DNA from: Bryoerythrophyllum caledonicum
Lineage: Eukaryota > Streptophyta > Bryopsida > Pottiales > Pottiaceae
NCBI GenBank assembly: GCA_963971425.1
Contig: OZ020524.1
Location: 15,069,845 to 15,133,844 of the forward strand
DNA length: 64,000 bases
Direction: 5' to 3'
Shown: one piece after another, positions 12,374 to 61,240 of the stretch
Layout: every line of letters starts with the position of its first letter
Position numbering within the stretch: the stretch's first letter is position 1
Program-made: the position numbers and the translations under genes
The notes under the pieces: generated by a model
The model's database searches: none
What the model was told of the DNA's origin: nothing
The model's input: only the letters and a program-made list of their open reading frames with translations

Positions 12374-13672
12374 ATGTCTACGAGCATCAGTCCTCGACCT
12401 GCATTTGCGATGGAGAATCCTGATATGAATGGCAGCTTGTGGAGTCGATTACCCGAGGAACTTATAGAGAGAGTCCTTGCCCGGTTGCCTGCTGCAAGGC
12501 TGCAGCTGCGGCTTCGGACGGTGTGCACGACATGGAGCGAATTGGTGTCAAACAAGTGCTTTTTGGAGGCCTGCTCTGAGGTGATCACTTCTGTCACATT
12601 CGCATTGGAAGCTTTTCACAAACCCTCATTGACCTTAAATTGATGCGGAAGGATGTAAATTTGCGCCAGGTGGCGTCTTACGAGGCCTACTTTGTGAAAA
12701 CCTCCGTCTCCGAGCACAGCCGGTCGCTTGTGAGCTTCGACCCATCCACACACAGATGGGGCAATGTGCCGTATCTGAGTCATCTGCCATCCAAGGTGGG
12801 CTTCCCGGTGTCGTCCTCTGGCGGCCTCATGTGCTTCACCAACAATCTGCAAGCGTCCTTGAGGGACGGATCAGTGTTGTTCGTGAGCAACCCCATGACC
12901 AAGACGTGGAAGGAGCTCCCGCGGCTTCACTGCGAGCGATGGCCCATGCTGGTCAGTATCATCATGTGGAAGCGGCCTCACCATTACAAGGTGATCGTGG
13001 CGGGAGGAGGAAGTACCGAAATCTTCGACTCCATCGAGGGTGAATGGCGCAACAGCGGGTGCCTGCCCCGCGGCGAAGAAACTGTGGGACTGAGGAATGT
13101 CGCGGCCTATTGCAATGGAAGTTTGTACTGCCTCACAACGTCAAACCGTGATCTCTTAGCGTTTAGCATCCAAGAGAAGGTGCAGTTCATGCCCTCTCAA
13201 CATTTGCACAAGTCTGGATGCATTAGAGCTTGTAGCCAAGTTCTTACACAAAGTATTATATACAGTAATTCATTGATGGATTCTTGTGCAGACGTGGAGC
13301 AAGGTGAAGACGGACTCGCTGCCTGGGCACTGCCAGTTCCGCAACCTGGTCACGTGCAAGGGCCACATCGTGATCGTGGGCAAGTGCGTGCGGAAGCAGG
13401 TGCAGTGGGTGTGCGTGTGGCTGCTCGAGTGGACGACCATGAAGTGGCGGGAGGCGGGGCGCATGCCGCAGGCGTTCTACTCGGATGACTTCCCGGGGCA
13501 CCCCTCGGCGTTCCATTGCTGCAGCCAAGGTGACCTGATCTTCCTCACAAGTGGCAAGTGCCGCATGGGTCGCTTGTACAACATGGCCCAAGACAGGTGG
13601 TGCTCGGTCGAAGCCTGGCCCAACCTCGTAAGCGGCTTATCTTTCGAACCGCGCTTGGACTCTCAGGTGTAG
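12374..13672 (+). CDS. F-box protein with kelch/beta-propeller-like C-terminal half
   Basis: Three exons: 12374-12580, 12670-13179 and 13292-13672. Introns are GT..AG and all junctions are phase 0, giving 365 aa. Residues about 21-65 form an F-box (LWSRLPEELIERVLARLP, then LRLRTVCTTWSELV), the Skp1-binding part of SCF ubiquitin ligases. The rest has the pattern of plant F-box/kelch-associated domains, with short hydrophobic strands and Trp-containing turns (STHRWGNVPYL, MTKTWKELPRL, GEWRNSGCLP, TTMKWREAGRMP, AQDRWCSVEAWP). It probably selects substrates for ubiquitination, but the target cannot be read from sequence. The start at 12374 is chosen just ahead of the F-box. A second in-frame ATG at 12410 is also possible, and the same frame is open further upstream without support. 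Confidence 0.8.
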
Positions 13673-22734: not shown

Positions 22735-24400
22735 TCACCTCCCTTTATTCGGAGCAGTAGGTTGCATGATATCTTTGCAAATACGTTCTAACACGCCTAA
22801 GAATTCTCGCACAACAAAAAATACCTTAAGGGGTTGTGAATCATCTTTCGCCGCAGCCGCGCCATAGAAGTAGATACTGACTTTCTTCACAGCATCAAAC
22901 ACTGCTGCGAAATCCTTATCTGCAGCAGCAACGCTCGCATCCGCTTTGGCCACAAAGCTCTCCATCGTCGCCTGGAAAGAATCATCGGTGAGATCTATGG
23001 TACTATCCTTGACTTTACACTCCACCCCCTGCGTGGCGGTGAAACGCCCTTCCGTCACCTGCGCCTTGATCCCCTGCAATCCATTGACAAGCTTCTGGAT
23101 GGCCGCCTTCAGAGAAGGCGCATCCAATCCACCTGCTTTCCTCACATTCGACATCTCTGCTGGTAACCTCAGAATCACTTCCATTCCCATATTCTTGGAT
23201 TCGTCCCCGTTCGTCTTCTCTAAGTGATTGCTGGCAACAGCAGCCTCAAAAGGAGACGCATTCGGGGATTGTGGAGTTGAGGGCGTCGAAGGTATACTCG
23301 CAGCACTGCTGATCTGCTTGATCACGAAGTGCAGCAGGGTCGTCTTTCCGTCGGCTCCTTTCACATCATCGAGCTTCAAGAGATTGTCAAGTTTGAACGC
23401 TTCGGCGTTTCCTCGGAAAGTGCCCTTGTTCAGCTTGTTACCCGCGCTCAGCACCGCTCCTAGAAGCTTCGCAAATGTCTTGCTCCCTTTCAGCTCCGTG
23501 CATGCCAACTGCATCAACAAAATGGAAATGACACGTTTCTTAAGCAATCTGGACTTCTGATATCCAGAGTATATCAAAGTAAAATGAACAACAGAGACGG
23601 TCATGTGGTGTGAGCAATTGATACGGCACGTGTACTTACCTCTAACACTTTGATTGCGTCTCGTACGTGTTTCATCTCCTCCTCGTACTGAGCTCGATAC
23701 AACATTGCGCTAAGACGAGCGAAAGCATTTGGAACATGCAATATGGCATGGAAGAATCGGTCAGGAGGGCCAAGGCTTAAAAGACTGCCATCAAACTGCA
23801 TAAACTTCTTCTTCTCATCAGCCGTAGGCGCCACCTTCACCAGTGTCTCTAGCACCTCCATGGTCAAGCCCTCACCTTCGGAGCCAAACAACATGAAAGA
23901 ACTCAGCACAACTAGCAATAGGCTCAATAACAGAGAGCATGATAATCTTACACATTACATTTATATATCAAACATGCAAAAAGGTGTGTACTAACAAAGA
24001 GGGAAAAAGGAAATGAACCTTCCAGCATAGCCCCAATGACTTCGTGTTTCGTAAGTCCAAGGGCGCGTAGCTGAATAGAGAAGTTGTGAGCCTTCCTTGA
24101 TTCCAAGATAGCGATATGTGGTGTGGCAGAAGACGCTGACTTTTTGACATCGTTTTTTTTGGGTGCCGGGGCCGCTAGACCAAAGAGTGCTTCAAGCATT
24201 TCAGTATCAAGCCTGCAAGATCACCAAGAGCCTGAACTCCCGACTGCAAATGACGTGAAAATATACGTCGAGCATTTTACCCGTATTGAAAGCAGACGAG
24301 GAATTTAACCGAATTACAGTGGGAGAGGCAGAAACTTACTCCATGGATTTGTCCAGGTTATCCCACACCATAGACGTGTCTGGCGCAGCTTTAACTTTAT
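22735..24400 (-). other. FH2 actin-nucleating domain of the fusion
   Basis: Spread over the end of exon 25 and exons 26-28. The lasso/linker start KQLHWDKVKAAPDTSMVWDN is followed by EMLEALFGL, LESRKAHNFSIQLRALGLT and TADEKKKFMQFDG. The signature helix region is AVLSAGNKLNKGTFRGNAEA, then FKLDNLLKLDDVKGADGKTT and LLHFVIKQI. The C-terminal coiled part ends EFLGVLERICKDI. The pattern is that of plant class I formins and looks complete. Confidence 0.93.
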
Positions 24401-27400
24401 CCCAGTGCAGCTGCTTCAATTTTTGCTTCGGAGGTGAAATCACTTTAGGCGCTGCCGGCTTCTTCCCAACATTGAGAGGCTTTAAGCCAGGAGGTGGCGG
24501 AGGATCACCCTTTTTGGGTCCTGGAGGTGGCGGGGGAGGTGGACCACCCCGCCCTCCTGGAGGAGGTGGTGGTGGAGGACCCCCTCGTCCTCCTGGTGGC
24601 GGTGGTGGAGGAGGAGGACCCCCTCGTCCTCCTGGTGGCGGTGGTGGAGGAGGAGGACCCCCTCGCCCTCCTGGTGGCGGTGGTGGAGGAGGACCCCCTC
24701 GTCCTCCTGGTGGCAGTGGTGGAGGCGGAGGAGCACCTCGTCCTCCTGGTGGCGGCGGTGGAGGCGGAGGAGCACCTCGTCCTCCTGGGGGAAGGGGTGG
24801 GGGTGGGGGTGGAGGAGCAGCTCGTCCTCCTGGAGGTAGAGGTGGAGGAGGGGGTGGAGCAGCTCGTCCTCCTGGAGGTAGCGGTGGAGGAGGGGGTGGA
24901 GGTGGTGGAGCAGCTCGTCCTCCTGGAGGTAGAGGTGGAGGAGGGGGTGGAGGTGGTGGAGCAGCTCGTCCTCCAGGAGGTAGAGGTGGAGGAGGGGGTG
25001 GAGGTGGTGGAGCAGCTCGTCCTCCAGGAGGTAGAGGTGGAGGAGGGGGTGGAGGTGGTGGAGCAGCTCGTCCTCCAGGAGGTAGAGGTGGAGGAGGGGG
25101 TGGAGGTGGTGGAGCAGCTCGTCCTCCTGGGGGAAGAGGTGGAGATGGGGGTGGAGCAGAGCGCCCTCCAGGAGGTGGTAGGGGCGGTGGTGGAGCAGGA
25201 GCAACGGTCACTCCTGGCGGTTGAGATGGTGTTGCTCCTCGAGGTGGAGACGCGGACGAGGGAGCAGGACCAGTAGCTGCCGGATTAGATTCTTCTATGT
25301 CATCAAGCGGGGTGCTGTTCAGTCTAGAGATGGTAGAATTTATACTGTACAGGAACTGGTTTGGGGTCTCTTTTCGACTGGCACGCCTTGCAAGCCCAGA
25401 AGCACCATCTTTCCTGCTGGCACGCCTTGAGAGCCCAGGGGTACCATCTTTCCGGCTGGCATGTCTTAAGAGCCCAGGTGGAGTTGGAGCCCCAGCATTG
25501 ATAAACTTGATAGAAGGCAGAGGAAGCCTCGCAGAAATCGGTCCCGATTTAGGCGAGGATGCCTCTTCACCATCCGAAGAAGACCATCCACCACTGCCAG
25601 AGCTTTCGTCACTACGAATCGATGGCAACGGGACGTAGGTTTCTATGTTCAGATGGCCAACCGAGATGGACTCCACGGGAGCATCTGTTTCTTCTGTCGC
25701 AGCAGTAGGAGGTGCAGGAAGAGGACGAGGAGCGGTGGAATTATGGATAAAATTGGATTTCACAGGAGCCTCCTTCCTAGAAAGAGCGTGACTTGGTTGA
25801 CGCTGCAATCCTACCACTGGGACAAAGTTTTCCACTTTCACATCTCCACCAAGCGCGCTGCTTCCTGTCCTCTGTTCAATGGATGAATGCTTGCGACCCA
25901 ATACCGCACGTGAAGGATCCACATCGCCATTATCTTTCCCTTCCCCAGCGCCACTCCCACTCCCATGAGCGAACCGGTTTGGCCTTCTCGACGCATTGGT
26001 CGATGAAGCAACCGCACTTTCGAGCACAGACTCTTCTCCTTCACCTTCCCTTTGTGCTCCCGCTCTGTCCCCAATGCTTTTAGACGATCGGAATAGCATT
26101 CCAGGTCTTCTAACTGAAGAAGAACCAGCATTCTCTTCCATAATCGCTTCCCTCTCTTCAGAGGCTTCGACCTCCCTGTTTGCTCTAAGCCTACTTTCTC
26201 TGCTTTGAAACGAACGGTTCAGTCTCATCGATCCTCTCAAGGAAGGAGAATCTGCACTTTCCACCACGGTCGGTTCAGTATCTTCCCCGGCCTCAACCCT
26301 CCGGTATCGGTCCCCAATGCTTTGAGACGATCGGGCAAACCTTCCAGGCCCTCTCACTGAAGATAAGCCCGCGTTCTCCTCCATGTTCGCTTCTTTCTCT
26401 TCGGCCGATTCGACCCCCCTGTTTGCTCTAAATACACCGCTTCGGTTCAGTCTCATCGATCCTCTCAGGGAAGGAGAATCTGCACCTTCCAGCGTGGTAG
26501 GTTCAATATCTTCCCCGGCTTCAACCCTCCGGTAACGATCCCTAATGCTTCGAGACAATCGAGCAAACCTTCCAGATCCTCTAAGTGAAGGCGAACTCGC
26601 ATTCTCGAGAGTAGCCCCTCTATGCTCTGCCGCATCGGACTCTCTGTAACCCACAACTCGGTTTGCACTGCTTTGATTCGGCCTCGCATATCCACGACGG
26701 GAAGGCGAACCCGCATTTCTCTCTTCTGCTGCATCGAGTTCCCTGTACCCTGCAAGTACACTTTCACTACTTTGGTACAATCGGTTCAGCTTCATCGATC
26801 CTCTCGGAGAACCATACCTCCCTTCTGTTGCGTCGAAGTCCTGGTACGGAGCAAGCCTACCTTCACTGCTTTGAGACAATCCGTTGAGCCTTCTCGACAC
26901 TCTAAGCGAAGAAGACCTGGAACTTTCGGACACAGTAGCTTCATACTCTTCTCCTCCTCCTTCACCGTCTCTTGCTGCCCCGACTCTGTCCCCGAAGCTT
27001 TGAAGATATTGATTCGGCCTTACAGGTCCCCTCAAGTAAGAACTGCGACCATTCGCCGGCATGTTAGGATCTCTCCCTTCAACAGCGTCGTGCTCCCTGA
27101 ACGCTCCAACTCTATCTTCGCTGGTTTGAGAATAGCGGTACGGCCTTCTCGGAGCTCTCAGCGAGTAGTCCGCATCTTCCGAGATGATAGCTTGCGTCTC
27201 TTCTGCAGAGTCGACTTCCCTATATGCTCCGAATCTGTCACCTCTCCTTTGAGGAAATCGGTTCGTCGTCCCCGACCCTCTCAGCGAGGAAGAAACCGCA
27301 GTTTCTTGCAGATTGGCTTCCCTCTCCTCTGCTGAGTCAAGTTCTCTGTATCCTCCGGCTGTTCCCACAATGTCCTGTTCATCCTCAACTCTGCTAGGCC

Positions 27401-30400
27401 TTCTCCCACCCCATACCTTCCCACTTGCTTCGGTGTATCTTCCACCTCTCCTTAATCCACCCTGGATAGGAACGGGTGTTCCTTCAACACCAGCAATATC
27501 TTCATCCGTAGTGGCCTTCCTCACATAGCTTGGTGAATGCAGACTACCAGAGTCGTCAAACTTCGCACGATTACTTGAATTTACTTCCTCAACATTCTGT
27601 CCTCGTAACAGTGCAGCCCCTCTACCAACTCCCGCTCTTCTCACGTCTCCAGGCCTCATCCTTGACGCAACATCTCCTTCACCTTCTCCACTACCTGCAT
27701 CTTCTCCAGAAGGAGCGAACTTAATTCTTCCAGGTCTCGTAGGCTTTTGAGTCTCCGAGTTTGGATTAGACTCCAATTCACCTGATTGTGTTCTCAACGG
27801 CAAGGGAAGTGCAGGGAGGACTTGCGGAGCCATGACGAAACTACTCTTCCGATGGACTGTATCACTCTTTGTAGATGTTTGTCCACGTGCCAAAAGTGTA
27901 GAGTCCTGCCCAAACTCTGTTTCATCATGGGCAGGCTTATGACCAAGTAAACCTCCCATCTGTAAAAACGCACTTGTCGCTTTATGGGGATTTTCAAGCC
28001 ATCCACTGATCCTGCAATACTCACAAACATAAAAGTAATTAGAAAGTTTTCACGAATTTCATTGACTTTTAAATTACTGGTTTTCGCAGCAAGGATAAAG
28101 CTGATAAAGATAATGGAATGGTACTCTCGAAAAGATCTATACCTACTCTCAAGCTTCGCCTTTTTGAAGTCCTCTCTTAATTTGACGAATCTGCAATACA
28201 ATCAGCCGTTCCAACTCAGTATGACATCGTAGCATCAAGATTCGAAATGCAGATATTACAGTATCTTTCAAAAATATAAAGAACGTCCAAATGGCTCATA
28301 TTTCTAAGATTTAGCAAATATTAGAGCTAAAACTAGTTCATTACGGACTTGGTGTTCACTAAAACCCAGTAATATTTCTTCGGCAGACGTGCAGGAGAAC
28401 GGGTAATATAAAGAAGTCAACCATAAAGAAGAACGTACCTCACTGCATACTCTTTAAGCTCCTCTTTAAAATTAGTATGGACCAATGCCGGTAGGCTCTC
28501 TGGATCCTCAATGATAAGAACATTCACCATTCTGCAAGATACAAAAACAAATCATCAGGACATCAAGACTAGTCGAAACAAAGCAACCGATAAACAAAAA
28601 TCAGGTCTGAGAGTTAGACTTACGTGCCCAGAAATTCAAACTTTTCATCCACTGCCGGAGCCTTGAAATTTCGTACAAACTCCGCAAATTCGACCACATC
28701 GCGTTTCAACACATAACCCCCACTGCAAAAATACAGGTCTAAATGAGTCTCCAAAGCCTTTGAACTAGAAAGAGTATCAGTGCAAAGAATGCCTTCAGAA
28801 ACGCCACTACCTGCTACAAACAAGCATAGGTATAAATCCAAGTGCTAAAATATCTTAACACTGTATGGAGAGGACCTCAAATCCACAAACCTGACACTAA
28901 AGGTAAACCGTTCCCAATGCACCAAAAGAGTTTTGTACAAATGGTTTCCCTGCAAGAATCCACAGAAGGGTTAGGAACCTTGCCAAGATGTCTGGTTAGC
29001 AGAACTTGAACAATCAAACAATTGAAGGCGTGTCATACTGTGCATTTTCTAAATTAACCATAGTAGCTAAAGGTTAAGTACCTATACCAATTCTGTCAAA
29101 AATGCTTGTTTGTTGAGTCCCTCCAAGGAAGCATAACCTGCATCCAGCATGTGCTCCATGTATGCTATAACTCTGAAATTTCAGCATTTTGTCAAAATTA
29201 TCACACAAAAGCGAGTCCATTCCACATAACTAATCCCCCCAGAAAAACCACTTCATAAACTAATGTGAAGGCGGTTCATGTCAAACTTGGGTTCTAAAGA
29301 CTTTAGAATTCATGAAAAGAAGATTAAAACTCTATAACCAATAAAAATGAGCAATTAACCAATCAAAATTTTAATGATTCAATTTACTAACTAAACCAAC
29401 GAGGAACATAGCAGGCAATATTGCCGACCTAGCTACACCTTGATTGGTAAGGTATCAGATCTAACATATTGAATGGGTAAATGGTATGAAGTCCACAGCG
29501 GTAGGAAAGGCTACCCACTTGGTACATGCACTAGTGGGTTGATGGTCTGAAGCGTGTCCATGCTCTGCTGATTTGAAATCAGTAGCTCTCTGTTCTGCAG
29601 ACAGAATGCGTTCCACCTGCAAAGCCAATCAAAGTGTTAATAACACATTAAGTTCGTACAGTTTCAAATGCTTATATCTGGCGCAGCAATCAAATCCACC
29701 TCAAGGGCTTTCACAGAGTTAATGCAAGATAAGCTGGAGAAGTGGAAATATACCTCTGCCATAATTGTGTCGATACACATTTGAAGACCTTTCAATGCAG
29801 CACGTTCAGGATTAGCCATGGCTGATGCCATCTGTTCACAGCATGCCGCATAAGCTCGATCTAGTAAAAATCGCGAGATGCTGTTCGCCAGATACTGCAA
29901 AAAAACCATGTGTGTGAATGGCCTAAAATTAGAAACGCGTGCATGTCCACACTCACGGGCCTCTAGTATACATTTAGATATACTGATTTTCATGCGTGAG
30001 TGATGAAGACGCACCTGCTGAACCGAAGCAGCATTTGCTGTGGCTCCTTTAACAGCAGTCATAAATCCACGAACCGCACGTTCCCCAGCAGTTGCGGCTG
30101 CCTCTGCCTGAACACCATTTTTGAAGCAACCAAACATCCAATTCTAATAATTGAGTACCAGCCGAGTAATAATGACATCTAATTGCAATTGTCCTCATGG
30201 GCAAAAAGACGCTACTAAAAAACTGTGAGTTTACTATAATCCAGAAGTTCACGAGGCACTTTTGCGTAGATTGGAGGTCAGACGCTCTTCAAGTGCACTA
30301 ACATAGATACTAGTGCGCAAGGTTCAACCAATTCAACTGTGTAAATAGATCACATAGATAAAAATGTTTGGATTACAAACCGCAGTAGCAGCAGCAATCG

Positions 30401-33400
30401 CTACACGGTGGCTCACTCTAGAGCCAATTTGGTAAATATTTCGCCTCTGAGCAGCTTCATTTAAGGCATCCATTGCTCTTTCTAATTCTTCAGTTGTGAA
30501 TTGGCTGACCTGAAGAACGCAAAACCCAACTACCTTTCAGTCCTACATTCCATAATGTTGTGTATTGCTACTACCGAATTAAGTCAAAATCAAACACACA
30601 TAACACTCGCAGAATTAGCATTCCAACATCTTTCTAATAGATTCTAGTTTCCAGCCGTACTAAATATGTACTTCTCTGTGAACTAGTGCATGCAGAAGCG
30701 CACAATTAATGAACTACAATAAGTCGAAGCACATAGATCCTCAACACAATGACTTTTACCTGGTCAAGTAAGCTGATAAAAACTTGGCTAACGTTCACTG
30801 CCAAATTATCAGCCTGCAGCCCCAAATGTAGCCCGAAAAAATCAGAAATCAATGTGTGACGATAACAGCACTTCAATCTTGCATCCAGATGCCACTACGG
30901 AGGTTGCTTTCACAACCTCCTGATTTGATTGTTTACATCCACCACAGTATGACAATTGTATATAAGCAGTAAATACAATTTTTTTGTAAAGACATGCCAA
31001 CCTCGTTAAACAACCGAAACTACTGCTCATCAAACTGAAGTGGAAGAGTAACAAAGTACCTGTGGAGTAAAAAGCACACAGCGAGCTACAGCGTCCTTGT
31101 TCCAATGCTTGAAATCGTCCACAGCACTTTCATGCTTGGTAGGTTCTTCTTTTCTCAACTCTATCATCTGACCATGACAATGAAGAGTGTAACTTCAATA
31201 AGATGTGCAGTACATGAAGAGTACAAATTCAAACTGCCTGCTGCTAAATTAAACATCACGTGACTCTACCAAACCACGATGCACTAGTTTTCCACCTAAA
31301 AAAACAACTTCAAAGGAGTAGCTTGCAATCCGTGTTTCCCGCAAAAATCACTGTACCTTGCATTCGAAAAGCTGCGACAGCGATGCAAGTTCACGTTCTA
31401 GATAAACACCTGATTCTAAATACTTCGTAAAGAGGGACTCGGGTTGGCCTGAACAGGTCACTCAACTATCAGTTCTGCACTCTAAGAAAAGAAAAAGCCA
31501 CAAAAATTATCAGCTTACTTAGAGGCTATTTGTATTAACAAACAACAATTGCCCAGATTGCAATTGAACATGTTCAGCTTAACACAAACATAATACGACA
31601 TCCACTTCTTTGTGGTAGGTATATAGCCCAGTGATCCGCTTTTACCTTCATAATCCATCTCCCCGCATCCCAGTATGCAGAGTTCTTTGACCAATTCTTG
31701 GGTCTTCTCGAAGGCTCCAGCAAGCAAGCGCAAGTACTGACAAGATAAGCATAGATCGTGTCAGAAAGGTCTTATATCCAAATTAAGCGACTCAAACCTG
31801 TACATCTCCATGTGGACACCACATAAAATTCACATCCACGTGATGGGCATACATATTGCAAGAAGTTCTAAAATTCGCACAATGACTTTTGAACAGATTT
31901 CAGAAATGTACCCACCTTCTCATTGCCACCTTCGTGCATTGGAATTGGAAATTTCTCAGATGGAATATCAAGTAGTGTCTCTAGCGCTGCAGCCACGCGT
32001 TGTTCAAGCACTCGCTGCATTACATTTGTAATATTAGCGCGCAAAAACAAACTCAGCAGCAAAATTACTTCGATAAAATAAAATTTCACAATCCTAAAAC
32101 AGAAACCAAGAGTGGCAGTGTTCATCAAATTAAACCAATGTAGGAGTTACCTGAACCAAATTGGCCATCACTAATTGAGGTGATGGGAACACGGTGGTCA
32201 CTATTGTAGACTCCTCTCGCACAGTTTCTACAAGTCCAAAAAGTTACTTGGCATCATCATTAAAAGGCTTAATCTGGGTTGAAGATACTACTCATGAACA
32301 ACAAGGATACAATAAGATTTGACCTATGATTAATATCTGGACACAAACAGAACATCTATTTAATGTGCACATACCAGCAATATCCTTGTAAAGCACAGAA
32401 AGGCCGGTCATCATATCAGGAACACGCCCGGAAACAGATCTTTGCAGAACGTACGCATCCTTATTCATAACCTCCACATCTATGAACATCGGTCGAGATG
32501 CAACATACAGCTGCATTATGCTTTTCCCTTGATTGAACTGCGTAGACGTGAAAGTGATGAATATGAAAACCCGATACAAACAGGAATTATGGAGATGACC
32601 CCATATATCAATTTCTGCTACTTAAAATATCAATGAAAACTAGCTAAGTGAAGATCCACATGTCGAAGTACGATAGAAGTACAATATCAAGGGCAAGGAG
32701 TGAGTACAACAGTAGACATGTAAAATTGAGTTAAAAAGTAATGCACTAGATCTCACAACTTCGTATCTTCCTAGATAGTTGGCCCTAAACAGACAGTCAT
32801 TGAAGAAGCACAGCACAAATTGCACAGCAGATGTAAGACTGGAAGACTCTACTTTACTCCTGCCAATATACAGCATAACACCAAACAATTTAAACTCCCG
32901 TTTTTATTTTTCTCCATTTGTTGTCATCGTTAAAATTATAGAAAACCCAAACATATCTAGTAATAATAACCCCTAAATTCTTTTCCAATCTTCGATTCAA
33001 TTCGACCATAAATATATATTAATATTCCATATATCAACAGCTTGAATACCATTGACAAAAGAGATCCATGACAATTACATATCCAAAATCACTACTGAAG
33101 ACTAACCTGGCTAAGAATTTTGGCACACTCAGTCATTACAAGCAAGTCCTTCCTCTGAGAGGCCGTGTCAAAACGAGCCAGCAAGCGATTCTCCAAATCT
33201 GAATAAAGAACATTAACTTGTCAGACCACATTATTGATGAATGTACCAGCAATTTCAGAGCGTGTCACGTACAAACAGCTCCAACATTTCAAACAGTAAG
33301 ATTGTAAAATTTCCAATATAAAACAAATTGCGCTAGAATATGGAAATAATGCTATAGCCACGGCAACTATTTTTATTAAACGAACCAAAATGCCAACCCA

Positions 33401-35676
33401 TGTCACATGAAACGTTGTAGCAAAAATGACAATCTCCATAATATAATCATACCATTGCAGTATTCTTGAAGGTTTTCAAATGCAGCTTCTAAGCCCACAC
33501 TTGGAGTACCAAGTCCTCCATTTCCAGCGACTCCAATATCCAATTCAGCAAACAAACCTTCACACGTGGATGAACAATTAATTCTTCCAGAAATCTCTCA
33601 TTTTCAACTTCTATAACATTTCGAAGTAGAGATCAAAAAAACTAAGTTCTTAGCAATCTGAAGCCGCAGTTTAGACTTCTGAAGTCGCGGTTCATGGCCA
33701 AATGCCCTTCAAAGATGTCCTACAACTAATTCCTTCAACTACTTAAAGTTCTCTGCTGAGTCGGAGGTCCTTTGAGCTCAGATTGATTAAGAGAAAGCAA
33801 TCGTCGTATCCAAGAAAGGACACGTGTATCTCAACATAAGGACTCCTGACCCCCAAATCTATCGACAGCCCTAATCAACTTTTGATCAAAAGGAACTTTA
33901 ATTTGAAAACTAGAATTGAATATATTTTCACTTGTAAGAAGAATCCTGCTTAGTCACAACAAGATCCAACAACCATAATACTTACGGAGTTTCAGTGCAA
34001 CAGCTGCAGCCTCCGTCACACGCGCGTCATCGGAGAACAATGGAGAAAGCTTAATGAGCTCCAATGGCCGCGAGTTAAACTCCGTCATATACTGATAAAA
34101 ACCAAATGTCTCAGTCAAAAACAAGAGGTACGACATGAAAATAAACACAAGTGCATTCAACAGCTTTGTCCTCAAGCAATTTATTGAACCACCTAAAGCC
34201 TTCAAACAAAAAAACCAATCAAAAAACCACTCTTATCGTACGCTAATGACCTGACTGCAAACATGGGTTACCCTTTCAACTAATTCTCAGTCACACAGCC
34301 GAGACGACGTCCAAATAGCAGGGTATTCAAGTACTGAATACAGCAACTTCGTAGTCTACAGTCCACCTACCATCGCAAATAATTGGCTCATCATAACGTA
34401 CCTTTATGAGATTGATAGTCTCATTGGCAGTAGACTTCTGACGATCGGCATTCTGCAAATTGCCAAAAGGACGGTCCTTCAGTGATTTATAACAGAGGTA
34501 CGATTTGCCAAAAGGAAACCAGGCTCGAAAGCGATGGCAGATGAAAACGAAGGATCAAAAGCGTCCGAAACTCGGTGAATTTTAGAATACAACATCCCCA
34601 GACGAAAATTGTAAAACTCAAATACATCACTAAAAATCTCTGTACTGAAAGTGACCCGTTGAATATAGCCAGATGACAAAACCTTCTCATTAGTGCTGAT
34701 ATCCTTTTTTTCTTCCTTCGTTTCGGAAAAAAGTTGATACATTGCAGCGAGTGCAATAGAACAGAATACCGATTACAGGAAGGAACGACTAACCTGTAAG
34801 TGCTGTCCAATTCTAAGTGCAGTTTGGCATACTCCCGATAATCGAGAGTCCAATCGACTGGAAGTGCTGTACAAATCCTGCACTCCTTTTTCCAACTGCA
34901 CATGCACCTCGTTTATTAAGTAAAACCACTAGCCATGATCTACACTCTTGAGAAACCAAAGCTAATGCCGAATCAATCAACTAAACAGCAGCTGCTCGTA
35001 ATCAGCCTCATCACAAAATCTAAACGAAGAACAATGTAGCAAATGTTTTCAAGAAGTTGCCTAACCTCATTGAACTTCTTCTCATGATCTGTATCAAACC
35101 CTTGCAGCTCATGCTTGAGCTCTCCCAAATGATCGTCGACCTGGTGTAATGCCTCTGTTAACAACTCAACCGAAAAACTAAAAAACGAACCTCCTGCAAA
35201 AGCCAGAGCTCCTCCACCGCCTCCACAGTGCCAAAACTTGCATTGATCCAATCCTCCGACTAAACCTAAATCTTACCTGATAGCAGAGGTTGATGAGCTT
35301 CTTGCGAGCAACTCTGCAAGCTCGCGAAAGCCCGTCGGCTTCAAAGAGAGGCGAATCAACCGCCTTCTCCCCAGCATTCTCAATCCTTCGGCGATCAGTC
35401 CGCTTGTGGTTGACGCCATCCTTGGACGTCACGAGCTGCTCGAAGAACTCGTCGAACAGCAATTCCCCCTACAAATGCCCGCCACACACACACCGTCACA
35501 CCAACCGTCGCACATCCTCCAAACCCTAACACTCCCAATTCCGCATCTGAACCCTAAATCCTCACCTTAAACGCCTCCACATCCACCTCCGCGGCCCTGA
35601 ACGCGTCCGCCGAGCCCTTGCACGCCGTGGACTTGTCCGGATCCCAAGTCCTCGTCCCCCCGCCCCTATCCGGCAT
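22735..35676 (-). CDS. For1F: SEC10-formin fusion protein (For1F-type)
   Basis: A 28-exon minus-strand gene whose exons add up to 2412 codons plus TGA. Exons from the 5' end: 35566-35676, 35277-35468, 35066-35140, 34794-34895, 34402-34452, 33986-34091, 33453-33557, 33107-33198, 32375-32537, 32151-32227, 31916-32014, 31646-31736, 31357-31448, 31060-31167, 30760-30813, 30381-30509, 30015-30107, 29754-29894, 29519-29616, 29088-29172, 28891-28949, 28624-28722, 28439-28531, 28143-28190, 24340-28011, 24019-24212, 23640-23875, 22735-23508. Residues 1-788 are a full-length exocyst SEC10 (for example QFNQGKSIMQLYVASRPMF, then IDVEVMN; SLEGLNKQAFLTEL). Residues about 1007-1465 are a 12-fold repeat, followed by a proline-rich FH1 and an FH2 actin-nucleating domain. 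A fusion of this type is known in mosses as For1F. It couples vesicle tethering at the plasma membrane to actin filament assembly. There is no internal stop, and every junction keeps frame. Confidence 0.95.
24480..25235 (-). repeat. FH1 proline-rich minisatellite
   Basis: About 17 proline blocks of 4-10 residues are separated by LPPGGRAA, GGRGG or similar. At DNA level, 24830-25130 holds near-identical units of about 60 bp, evidence of recent array homogenisation. FH1 recruits profilin-actin for the adjoining FH2. Open frames on the opposite strand and in the third frame are by-products of this repeat. Confidence 0.9.
25979..27356 (-). repeat. Twelve-fold protein repeat of 32-43 residues in the SEC10-formin linker
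   Basis: The unit pattern is (V/F)GxYRExDxAEE, then an acidic spacer, then S(S/P)SLRGSxRxNRxxQSxxDR. I count 12 units, at fusion residues about 1007-1465. Units 7-11 alternate two subtypes (one starting YRRVEAGED, the other xANRxVExAEE), so pairs have duplicated recently. It is Arg/Ser/Glu-rich, probably disordered and phosphorylatable. I know no named domain with this pattern. Confidence 0.75.
28143..35676 (-). other. SEC10 (exocyst) moiety of the fusion, exons 1-24
   Basis: Twenty-four small exons (48-192 bp) encode the whole SEC10 fold, colinear with Arabidopsis SEC10 as I remember it. Landmarks in order: ELLFDEFFEQLV; ARKKLINLCYQVDDHLGELK; SSRLDSRLSGVCQTALRIGQ; LFSDDARVTEAAAVALKLR; LENRLLARFDTASQRKDLL; RPMFIDVEVMN; RVLEQRVAAALETLL; GAFEKTQELVKELCILGCGE; YLANSISRFLL; ASLEGLNKQAFLTEL; VDEKFEFLG; and last VKLREDFKKAKLES, where plant SEC10 proteins normally end a few residues later. 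SEC10 links the two exocyst subcomplexes. The N terminus differs from Arabidopsis and is about 40 residues shorter overall. Confidence 0.93.
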
Positions 35677-41639: not shown

Positions 41640-41850
41640 CTTCTTCTTGTTCTTCTTATTCTTGTTCTTGTTCTTCTTCTTCTTCTTATTATTCTTCTTC
41701 TTTTTGTTCTTCTTATTCTTCTTCTTCTTCTTCTTCTTCATCTCATTGTTGTTGTTGTTGTTCTTCTTCTTCTTCTTCTTCTTCATCTTCTTCTTCTTGT
41801 TCTTTATCTTCTTCTTCTTGTTGTTCTTGATCTTCTTCTTCTTCTCAAGA
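41640..41850. repeat. CTT/TTC microsatellite
   Basis: About 210 bases of imperfect TTC/CTT triplets with occasional TTG, TTA and ATC units. The poly-Phe and poly-Lys/Asn open frames across it are artefacts of the repeat. Confidence 0.9.
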
Positions 41851-54374: not shown

Positions 54375-55010
54375 TATGTAGACGCCAGTTCTAAGGTTTT
54401 ATAAAGGAACCTCTGAAGGAGCTGCCAACATTGGCACCCTTCTAGAGGGCCTCTCCAATTTTTATTAAAAAAACCTCCAAAAGTAGAGCCGACATTGGTG
54501 CACCTTAAGAGGTCCCTTTATATGTATATTAGAGGAACCTCCAGAAGAGCAGCCGACATTGGCGCCCCTCAAGAGAACCCCTTAAATGTATATTAAGAAA
54601 CCTCCAAAAGGGTAGCCAACATCGGCGCCTTCCTAGAAGACCCCTTAAATGTATATTAAGGAACCTTCAAAAGAATTGCCGACATCTTCCCTCTCCAAGA
54701 GGACCCCCTAAATGTATATCAAGTGAACCCCCAACATAGCAGCCGACATCGGCGACCCTCATGAGAATCCCTTCAATATATATTAAGGGAGCCTCCAAAA
54801 GGGTTGTTGACATTAGCGCTCTTCTAATGGGCCCCGTAAATGTATATTAAGGGAACCATAAAAAGGGTAGCTGACATCGGCGCCTCTCCAGAAGACCCTT
54901 TAAATTTATGTTAAGGAACCTCCAAAAAGGCAGCCGACATTGGCGATCCTCTACAAGACCTCTTAAATGTATACCAAGGAAACTTCTAAAAGGACAACCG
55001 ACATTGGCTG
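54375..55010 (+). repeat. Tandem array, about ten units of about 63 bp (left arm)
   Basis: Each unit carries AGCCGACATCGGCGCC or a variant, then a pyrimidine/purine stretch with AAGACCCCTTAAATGTATAT, then AAGGAACCTCCAAAAG. Units begin near 54430, 54489, 54553, 54615, 54679, 54742, 54806, 54870, 54932 and 54998. The GCCGACATCGGC core is itself nearly palindromic. Confidence 0.85.
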
Positions 55011-55245
55011 CCTCTAGAATGTGCAACACGCTCTGGAAAATTTGAAGATATTTCCGAAATGGTACTACACTTTATTATTGGACATTGTACGGATGAGTTA
55101 TCAATGGATGAAGTTCTGAATCTCATAACTTCATCCGCAAATAACTCATTCGTACAATATCCAATGATAAAATGTAATACCATTTCAGAAATATCTTCAA
55201 ATTTTCCAGAGCATGTTGCACATTCTAGAGGCAGCCAATGTCGGC
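55000..55245. repeat. Long near-perfect palindrome at the centre of the foldback
   Basis: Two arms of about 115 bases, roughly 90 percent identical by eye, face each other across an 11-base loop centred on 55121 (GATGAAGTT ... AACTTCATC). Outside the arms the 63-bp repeats continue in opposite orientation, so the whole of 54752-55490 could fold into one hairpin of about 370 bp per side. Confidence 0.85.
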
Positions 55246-55495
55246 TGCCCTTTTGAAGGTTCCCTTATTATACATTGAAGGGGTCTTGTAGACGGGTGCC
55301 GATGTTGGCTACCTTTTTGGAGGTTTCCATAATATACATTTAAGGGGTCCTCTAAGAAGTTGCCAATGTCGGCTGCCATATTGGAGGTTCCCTTCATATA
55401 CATTTAAAAGGTCCTCTTTGTAGGCGCCGATGTCGGCTGCTCTTTTAGAGGTTTCTTTGATATACATTTAAGGGGGTCTTTTGAAGGGCACCAAT
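55235..55495 (-). repeat. Tandem array in inverse orientation (right arm), four to five units
   Basis: The same 63-bp unit as 54375-55010, reverse complemented (CCGATGTCGGCTGCC with GGAGGTTCCC and ATATACATTTAAGGGGTC). Units lie near 55235, 55300, 55362, 55427 and 55490. Confidence 0.8.
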
Positions 55496-55775
55496 TTGGT
55501 CTCAACGGCTGTTTTTTCCTCTACCTGTAGTTTCTTCGTGCGAGAAAAAATCTGGAAAGCTTTCAGACCAGTCAAGTTCAGTGAGAATGGTCGGCCTGCA
55601 ATGTAGCGTCTTGAGGTCAATCCAACAAAAGGAAAAGACAAATCTAGCATCAAACTCTCGAGATATCATCACTTATACCGAGAATTGGATATTACTGAGA
55701 GGAATATTATGCGCCTGTAAAACATCTTCTTCGGCAATTGCCCTTTCTGCTGCTTCCCTGCCTTCACCTGCAAAG

Positions 55776-59676: not shown

Positions 59677-59716
59677 CGTTTCCCCCCCCTAAGCGCGCAC
59701 CTGGAGCCTTTCAGCC

Positions 59717-60095
59717 ACTTTGGGCCCTCAAATAGAGCACTTAGGGCCCAAGTTGAGCGACTTAGGCCCCAAAGTAGAGCGCTTGGGACCCTAGTTGAGC
59801 GACTTGGGGCACTAGTTGAACGACTTGGAGCCCCCAAGTACATCACTTGGTGCCCCAAGTAAAGCACTTGGGGCCCCCAAGTAGAGCATTTGGGACCTTC
59901 AGTGAACGACTTGGAGCCCCCAAGTAGATCACTTAGGCCCCCCAGTTGAGTCACTTGGGGCCCTCAAGTACAGTGCTTGGAGCCTCTGTTGAGCCACTGG
60001 AGGCCCCCTAGTAAAGCACTTAGGGCCTTAGTTGAGCGACTTAGGGCCTCCAAGTAGATCACTTGGGTCTCCAATTGAGTCACTTGGGGCAATTG
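59717..60095 (+). repeat. Short-unit minisatellite (ACTTGGGGCCC type)
   Basis: About 17 copies of a roughly 22-base unit alternate between two forms, TTGAGCGACTTGGGGCCC and AAGTAGAGCACTTGGGGCCC. It begins 40 bases outside the right inverted repeat of the large transposon. Translations across it are Ser/Thr-rich repeats without meaning. Confidence 0.85.
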
Positions 60096-60279
60096 TTGAG
60101 CTCTAGTTGACCCTTGTAGACCAATAATATTAAACCTCCCCTAAATTTTAAAGGACAAACATATAGAGTAGACCGTCCTTTGGATGATGAGGTTCTAAGA
60201 ACAACTTTGAAGCTATACACTCGGCACCATGTTGACTGTAAGCAAGCACAACAACTATATTCACAAGGCAAACCCGAGC

Positions 60280-61240
60280 TAAAGCCCAATATCAACGCAC
60301 ACATGCATGGCTTTTGAAGAATGAAAAAGTATCGGTGACCCCTCCATGTGTGCCTCGGATCCAAGGGCCTCTCATAGGGGTCTCAAGTGTTTTTCAAATA
60401 CCAATTTTCATAGCGCAACTCGGGCAACTTGAACTCATGCACACAAGCATCACAACAAGAACGTGCATGTATTTTGAAGAATAAGAAAGTACCATTGACC
60501 CCTCCAGGTGTGCCTCAGATCCGAGGGCCTCTCAAAAGGGTCTCAAGTGTCTTGTAAATATTAACTAAAAGTGTGAAACTTGAGCAACTTCAACTCATAT
60601 AAACTATAATCACAACGTCAACATGCATGCATTTTGAAGAATGAAAAAGTACCATTGATCCCTCCAAGTGTGCCTCGGATCCGAGGGCCTCTCAAAGGGG
60701 TTACAAGTGGGCAACTTCAGCTCATGCAAACAAACATCACATGTATGAATTTGCAAAAATCCTATTGTACCAGCTACACTTTAGGTGAGCCTCGGATATG
60801 AGGGCCTCTCACAAGGGTCACCGATACTTTTCAAATTGCACAATACTTGTTCAAATCATGAGCACAAACTAGCTCAAACTCTGAATCACGATTAAAATGC
60901 ACGAGGATGATGACAAAGAGTTGAGGACGTTCTTGAAAATGCTAAAATATAAAAGTACCAGTGACCCTTCTAGGTAAACCTCGGATCCACGTGCCTCTCA
61001 CAAGGGCCACTGGTACTTTTCAAATTGCACAATACTTGTTCAAATCATGAGCACAACCCACTCAAACTCTAGATCACGATCAAAAGCACAAGGCTAATGG
61101 CGAGGACGTTCTTCATAGTTTAAAAATATAAAAGTACTAGTGACTCCTCCAAGTGAGCCTCGGATTCGAAGGCCTCTCACTAGGGTCACCGGAACTTTTC
61201 AAATTGCGCGATACTTGTTCATATCATGAGCACAGACAAA
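60280..61240 (+). repeat. Satellite-like array, six units of about 160-190 bp
   Basis: Each unit carries AAAGTACCAGTGACCCCTCC, then GTGCCTCGGATCCGAGGGCC, then TCTCACAAGGGTCACCGG or similar. Unit landmarks (GCCTCGGAT) fall near 60351, 60511, 60671, 60787, 60978 and 61159. One unit is short (116 bp). GGATCCGAGGGCC includes a partly self-complementary core. Two more units lie at 62690-62970. Confidence 0.85.

Follow-up and report, generated by a model that had tools for sequence, protein, structure and literature searches.

A 64,000-nt stretch of Bryoerythrophyllum caledonicum DNA from contig OZ020524.1, referred to here as the window, very probably contains a moss gene in which Sec10 and a formin are fused, most likely orthologous to For1F of Physcomitrium patens. 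The orthology is drawn from the architecture of the protein, the grouping of its Sec10 half with P. patens Sec10, and the literature, not from an alignment with For1F. For1F was reportedly described as a Sec10-formin of P. patens by van Gisbergen and colleagues in J Cell Biol in 2018. The Sec10-formin fusion itself is already known from mosses; this analysis adds a description of the joint and of the repeat spacer, together with a count of the separate Sec10 and formin genes. A first-pass annotation of the same DNA had proposed a single gene of the moss For1F type, and this proposal is supported by a fusion of this kind in Ceratodon, by an open frame uncut across the joint on a contig of transcript size, and by the grouping of the fused Sec10 with that of P. 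patens.

Gene structure and open reading frame

The gene lies at 22735..35676 on the minus strand, as do all of its parts described below, and comprises 28 exons between an ATG at 35676 and a stop codon at 22737-22735. In a model built by reading splice sites, it encodes 2412 amino acids without a stop, with GT-AG borders at 27 of 27 introns. A second model, made with a purpose-written protein-to-genome spliced alignment of protein P0001 from Ceratodon purpureus to the window, returned the identical 28 exons and 2412 residues. Exons 1-24 with their introns form the SEC10 half (28143..35676), which encodes residues 1-787 and ends two bases into the Arg-788 codon. Intron 24 (28012..28142, 131 nt), whose donor lies inside this codon, constitutes the joint. 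Exon 25 (24340..28011, 3672 nt) then supplies the end of the arginine codon, a conserved joint block (ISGWLENPHKATSAFLQMG, 27954-28010), the spacer, FH1 and the start of FH2; the spacer includes an array (25953..27350, residues 1009-1474) in which a 42-residue unit recurs 12 times, not always in full, and the proline-rich FH1 (24489..25193, residues 1728-1962) has 16 runs of at least four prolines. Most of FH2 and the stop codon are encoded by exons 26-28 (22735..24212). The end of exon 24 at 28143 and the start of exon 25 at 28011 had been placed exactly by the first-pass annotation, as our recomputed model shows. Its further claims, that an AG|G arginine codon is split across intron 24 and that the SEC10 and formin exons are joined without a stop, agree with the same model and, for the latter, with the Ceratodon alignment.

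The open frame across the joint is not a product of chance, because other acceptor phases stop and shuffled sequences fall far short of it. Of the three possible acceptor frames of exon 25, the real one alone stays open, and the other two run into stops at aa 792 and aa 859. Over its first 2751 nt the exon is open for 916 aa, compared with open lengths that averaged 115 aa and reached 232 aa at most in 200 dinucleotide shuffles.

Domains of the predicted protein

Pfam detected Sec10_N at residues 93-198 (E = 2.5e-19), Sec10_HB in two stretches, the best at 455-786 (9.7e-110), and FH2 at 1980-2394 (6.6e-86) in the 2412-aa protein, which together with the gene model places a Sec10 domain and then an FH2 in a single open reading frame. 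Both features of an exocyst Sec10, Sec10_N and the helical-bundle domain, are present, and the Sec10 half matches the sequences of two solved structures, 5yfp (yeast SEC10, exocyst) and 5h11. For the FH2, 18 distinct solved sequences gave matches, every one a formin; they include INF2, mDia1, Formin-like 3, DAAM1 and Bni1. The FH2 belongs with class I, and its intron phases are those seen in class I-like formins, although the backbone of the FH2 tree is weak. By hydropathy, the fused protein has neither the signal peptide nor the membrane anchor typical of most class I formins: its best 19-residue mean is 1.36, compared with 2.7-2.9 in the class I formins P0125 (Ceratodon), P0126 (Sphagnum jensenii) and C2a (B. 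caledonicum).

Related fusion proteins

A search with the whole 2412-aa protein returned at least four matches: a Ceratodon fusion, a protein designated P0002, and two angiosperm gene models in which Sec10 stands beside unrelated domains. P. patens For1F was not among these, nor among the best 120 of 502 or the best 120 of 289 matches in the other searches. The Ceratodon protein (KC19_10G075500, P0001) is a predicted gene model of 2450 aa with both Sec10 and FH2; with segment bounds that we set ourselves, it is 82% identical to the window protein over Sec10, 76% over the spacer, 94.5% over FH1 and 87% over FH2. On the same footing P0002 is 68% identical in Sec10 and 45% in the spacer. Around the joint, 33 of 36 residues are identical in Ceratodon and 28 of 36 in P0002.

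P0002 is an uncut 1438-aa ORF on a 4532-nt contig and spans Sec10, the joint and the greater part of the spacer. Its source tag, 'lgn', we take to denote an assembly of public reads. Since the frame is uncut, the contig is hardly longer than the ORF, and the equivalent stretch of the window is split by 24 introns, P0002 is probably a spliced transcript, and one of moss origin. It ends before FH1, and hence documents Sec10 joined to the spacer rather than to FH2.

The spacer and its repeat

The 42-residue unit is present in 12 copies in the window protein, 12 in Ceratodon and 4 in P0002. From the end of Sec10 to the INSTISRL block, the three proteins measure 889, 924 and 604 aa, respectively. 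The first-pass annotation had called the intervening region unusually long, which is true in comparison with P0002 and fails in comparison with Ceratodon; with 12 copies and a similar length there, the long spacer is not unique. Its composition, rich in S, R, G, A and E, suggests that it is probably disordered.

The ancestry of the spacer was sought by comparison with anchored formins. BLASTP gave no match at E 0.01 and one, with E 0.34, at E 1. Smith-Waterman scores were also compared with 300 windowed shuffles for four anchored formins. For C2b of the same genome, against spacer residues 1521-1678, 0 of 300 shuffles reached the score, and the two share APVKS.F and PRPLPAP. For Sphagnum P0126, too, none of the 300 shuffles reached the score, but proline-rich ends contributed much of it; for C2a the score was reached by 53 of 300 shuffles, and for Ceratodon P0125 by 152 of 300. 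Of these four comparisons we trust one, that with C2b; it no more than suggests that the final segment of the spacer descends from the tail of a class I formin.

Separate Sec10 and formin genes in the same genome

The first-pass annotation had proposed asking whether a separate Sec10 or class I formin exists in this genome. Both do: a search of 437 Mb in 894 contigs found at least two more Sec10 genes and four class I-like formins. At least 36 Sec10 exon matches were obtained: 21 of them lie in the window gene, 11 at C2 and 4 at C11, three places in all. The 21 FH2 matches fell in the window, at C14, C2 (two places), C9 and C4 (two places), and in a fragment at C7. The genome search placed no FH2 match near the C2 or C11 Sec10 and no Sec10 match near the four class I-like formins. 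In its spliced model, the C2 Sec10 has a single terminal exon ending ...REDYRSAKIASRLTALAH, followed by a stop, and the C11 Sec10 stops soon after the equivalent point; both models are uncertain at the start, and that of C11 also at its extreme end. Seven formin loci were modelled, of which C14, C2a, C2b and C9 have class I-like phases, with one extra intron in C9; the models of C4a, C4b and C7 are partial or different.

The C11 Sec10 (L045, about 8169684-8175547) is very divergent, being 46% identical to the fused Sec10 and 52% identical to that of C2; from exon 3 onward its intron phases are the same. The C7 fragment (L053, C7:9983843-9984248) consists of two FH2 exons only, resembles C2b closely when compared by eye, and is perhaps a broken copy.

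Other features of the window

Elsewhere in the window, a 302-aa open frame at 12580-13485 on the plus strand matches a KIB1-4 beta-propeller and kelch, both below the cut-offs, and is perhaps a gene of the F-box/kelch type; these were the only two Pfam matches among the 10 ORFs searched out of 26 of at least 140 aa. No tRNA was found in the window, and no Rfam family reached its gathering score. Repeats include a CTT trinucleotide run of about 69 copies (41640-41845, 82% match), two arrays of 63/64-bp units in opposite orientation (54400-55500), and several close tandem arrays with units of 21, 43, 160 and 179 bp (59716-61234). Within the opposed arrays, two arms (54917-55119 and 55123-55325), separated by 3 nt, show 86% complementarity along 203 nt and form an imperfect palindrome.

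Trees of the two halves

The Sec10 tree was built from 24 hand-picked rows, taken from our own models, the fused proteins, and the best 120 of 502 matches. The fused Sec10s, three in number, form one group (100/100), and they join P. patens Sec10, the C2 Sec10 and three further Sec10s with the same support, For1F being absent from the rows. The stem of the fused Sec10s measures 0.75 changes per column compared with 0.18 for a four-row standalone group, and a stem this long makes an altered Sec10 function possible. The C11 Sec10 is placed elsewhere, on a branch of 1.33 and in an unsure position. For the FH2 tree, 11 extra formins were named, of which the 7 with the literal motif LHWDKV were kept, and C4b and C7 were left out. 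The FH2s of the two fused proteins, from the window and from Ceratodon, form a group (92/100). The backbone of this tree is weak, 4 of its 13 inner branches being starred, and it did not resolve the order of the moss formins or which of them is sister to the fused ones. The trees very likely place the lineage among the mosses, nearest to Ceratodon of the sequences compared.

Origin of the joint

Introns 1-23 have the order and phase of those in the C2 Sec10, whose model was guided by P0005, and introns 25-27 show the phases 2/1/0 found also at C14, C2a, C2b and C9, four of the seven formin loci modelled in this genome. Among the genes that we modelled, neither the Sec10 ones nor the class I-like formins have an intron equivalent to intron 24, which is therefore alone in matching neither parent. 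In C2 the codons AGT AGG CTC occur near the end, with six codons after AGG and then the stop; in the fused gene the corresponding sequence reads AGT AG|GTATAG, with the donor inside the same AGG codon, at a place that belongs to the terminal exon of C2. The simplest reading of these sequences is that a splice donor opened in the last Sec10 exon, so that the stop would have been removed and splicing would have run into a downstream formin. Less simple but possible is another route, by which the Sec10 stop was lost and an intron was then gained at the AG|G site; to the eye, ISGWL is similar enough to the usual Sec10 endings RLTALAH and RFSSLAH to allow for it. If the joint arose through a newly opened donor, the number of spacer units, 4 to 12 copies among the three proteins, would then have risen or fallen. 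As a fuller account, which we offer tentatively and as possible rather than probable, a donor in the conserved C-terminal arginine codon of a duplicated Sec10 would have joined it to a downstream class I formin whose membrane anchor was lost, and variation in the number of 42-residue units would have made the spacer a tunable leash between vesicle tether and actin nucleator.

One gene or two

Two neighboring genes, a Sec10 and a formin with separate messengers and an incidentally open joint, would be the main contender against a fusion gene. Such a view was left open for P. patens by a 2012 review that doubted expression of the fusion there (PMC3820618). We consider it very unlikely for the window, given that the same fusion occurs in Ceratodon, that an uncut ORF runs through the joint on the transcript-sized contig of P0002, and that the joint block is conserved in all three proteins compared. 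Moreover, Sec10 has no stop before the joint and 131 nt only lie between the halves, and a 2024 review speaks of a Sec10-formin fusion protein in P. patens (PMC11194305). An assembly artefact or a decaying gene would fit the greater divergence of the fused Sec10, which is 52% identical to Marchantia Sec10 compared with 68% for the standalone copy; with 27 of 27 GT-AG introns, no stop in 2412 codons, and the 82% and 87% domain identities to Ceratodon, this explanation is extremely unlikely.

Compatible with a fusion gene, and rather unlikely on balance, is the production of shorter products beside the full-length protein: Sec10 alone through retention of intron 24, or the formin alone from an internal start. 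If intron 24 is retained, the frame continues for 116 codons, counted from the arginine codon, and then stops, and excerpts of PMC11194305 state that over-expressing either half, or another Sec10 paralogue, rescues the P. patens For1F mutant. Against this, intron 24 contains one AATGAA only among the three polyA-like hexamers sought, which is a weak indication.

Discussion

We regard the locus as a fusion gene and propose that, in one protein, the exocyst subunit Sec10 would carry the FH1-FH2 end of a formin on a long, probably disordered repeat spacer. Through its Sec10 half the protein would become part of the exocyst, both on secretory vesicles and at the cortex of the cell, where FH1 would feed profilin-actin to FH2, and FH2 would start and lengthen actin filaments; tethering and actin assembly would thus take place at one spot. 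For B. caledonicum itself we infer expression, localisation, activity and spacer disorder. The known moss link between exocytosis and actin assembly is extended here to a further genome, for which the complete gene structure is given. The comparison of introns provides a testable account of how two unrelated genes may become one, and the variation of repeat copy number among relatives could serve as a natural series for the effect of spacer length.

Sec10 has been noted among plant formin domains in a supplement legend (Grunt et al., 2008; PMC2386819), and a moss SEC10 with a formin domain is mentioned in an excerpt of PMC8774047; the literature searched contained nothing treating Sec10, formin and Ceratodon together. 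The Ceratodon protein KC19_10G075500 resembles the window protein in domain order, in its 12 repeat copies and in the joint residues, and differs from it in sequence, with 75% identity along a best local alignment that takes in 76% of the query. The class I formins P0125, P0126 and C2a have FH2s 57-60% identical to the fused FH2, and C2a shares its three FH2 intron phases; unlike the fused protein, all three have a hydrophobic anchor-like stretch, and P0125 and P0126 have no Sec10 domain in the domain table. In P. patens, according to excerpts of PMC11194305, For1F represents a moss class I formin group in which a Sec10-like domain replaces the usual membrane motifs, is essential, and is found at exocytotic foci at the plasma membrane; a passage of PMC7859277 describes the fusion protein as essential for polar growth. 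By these descriptions, For1F joins a Sec10-like domain to a class I FH1-FH2, as the window gene does, and P. patens, like B. caledonicum, possesses another Sec10 paralogue beside its fused copy (PMC11194305).
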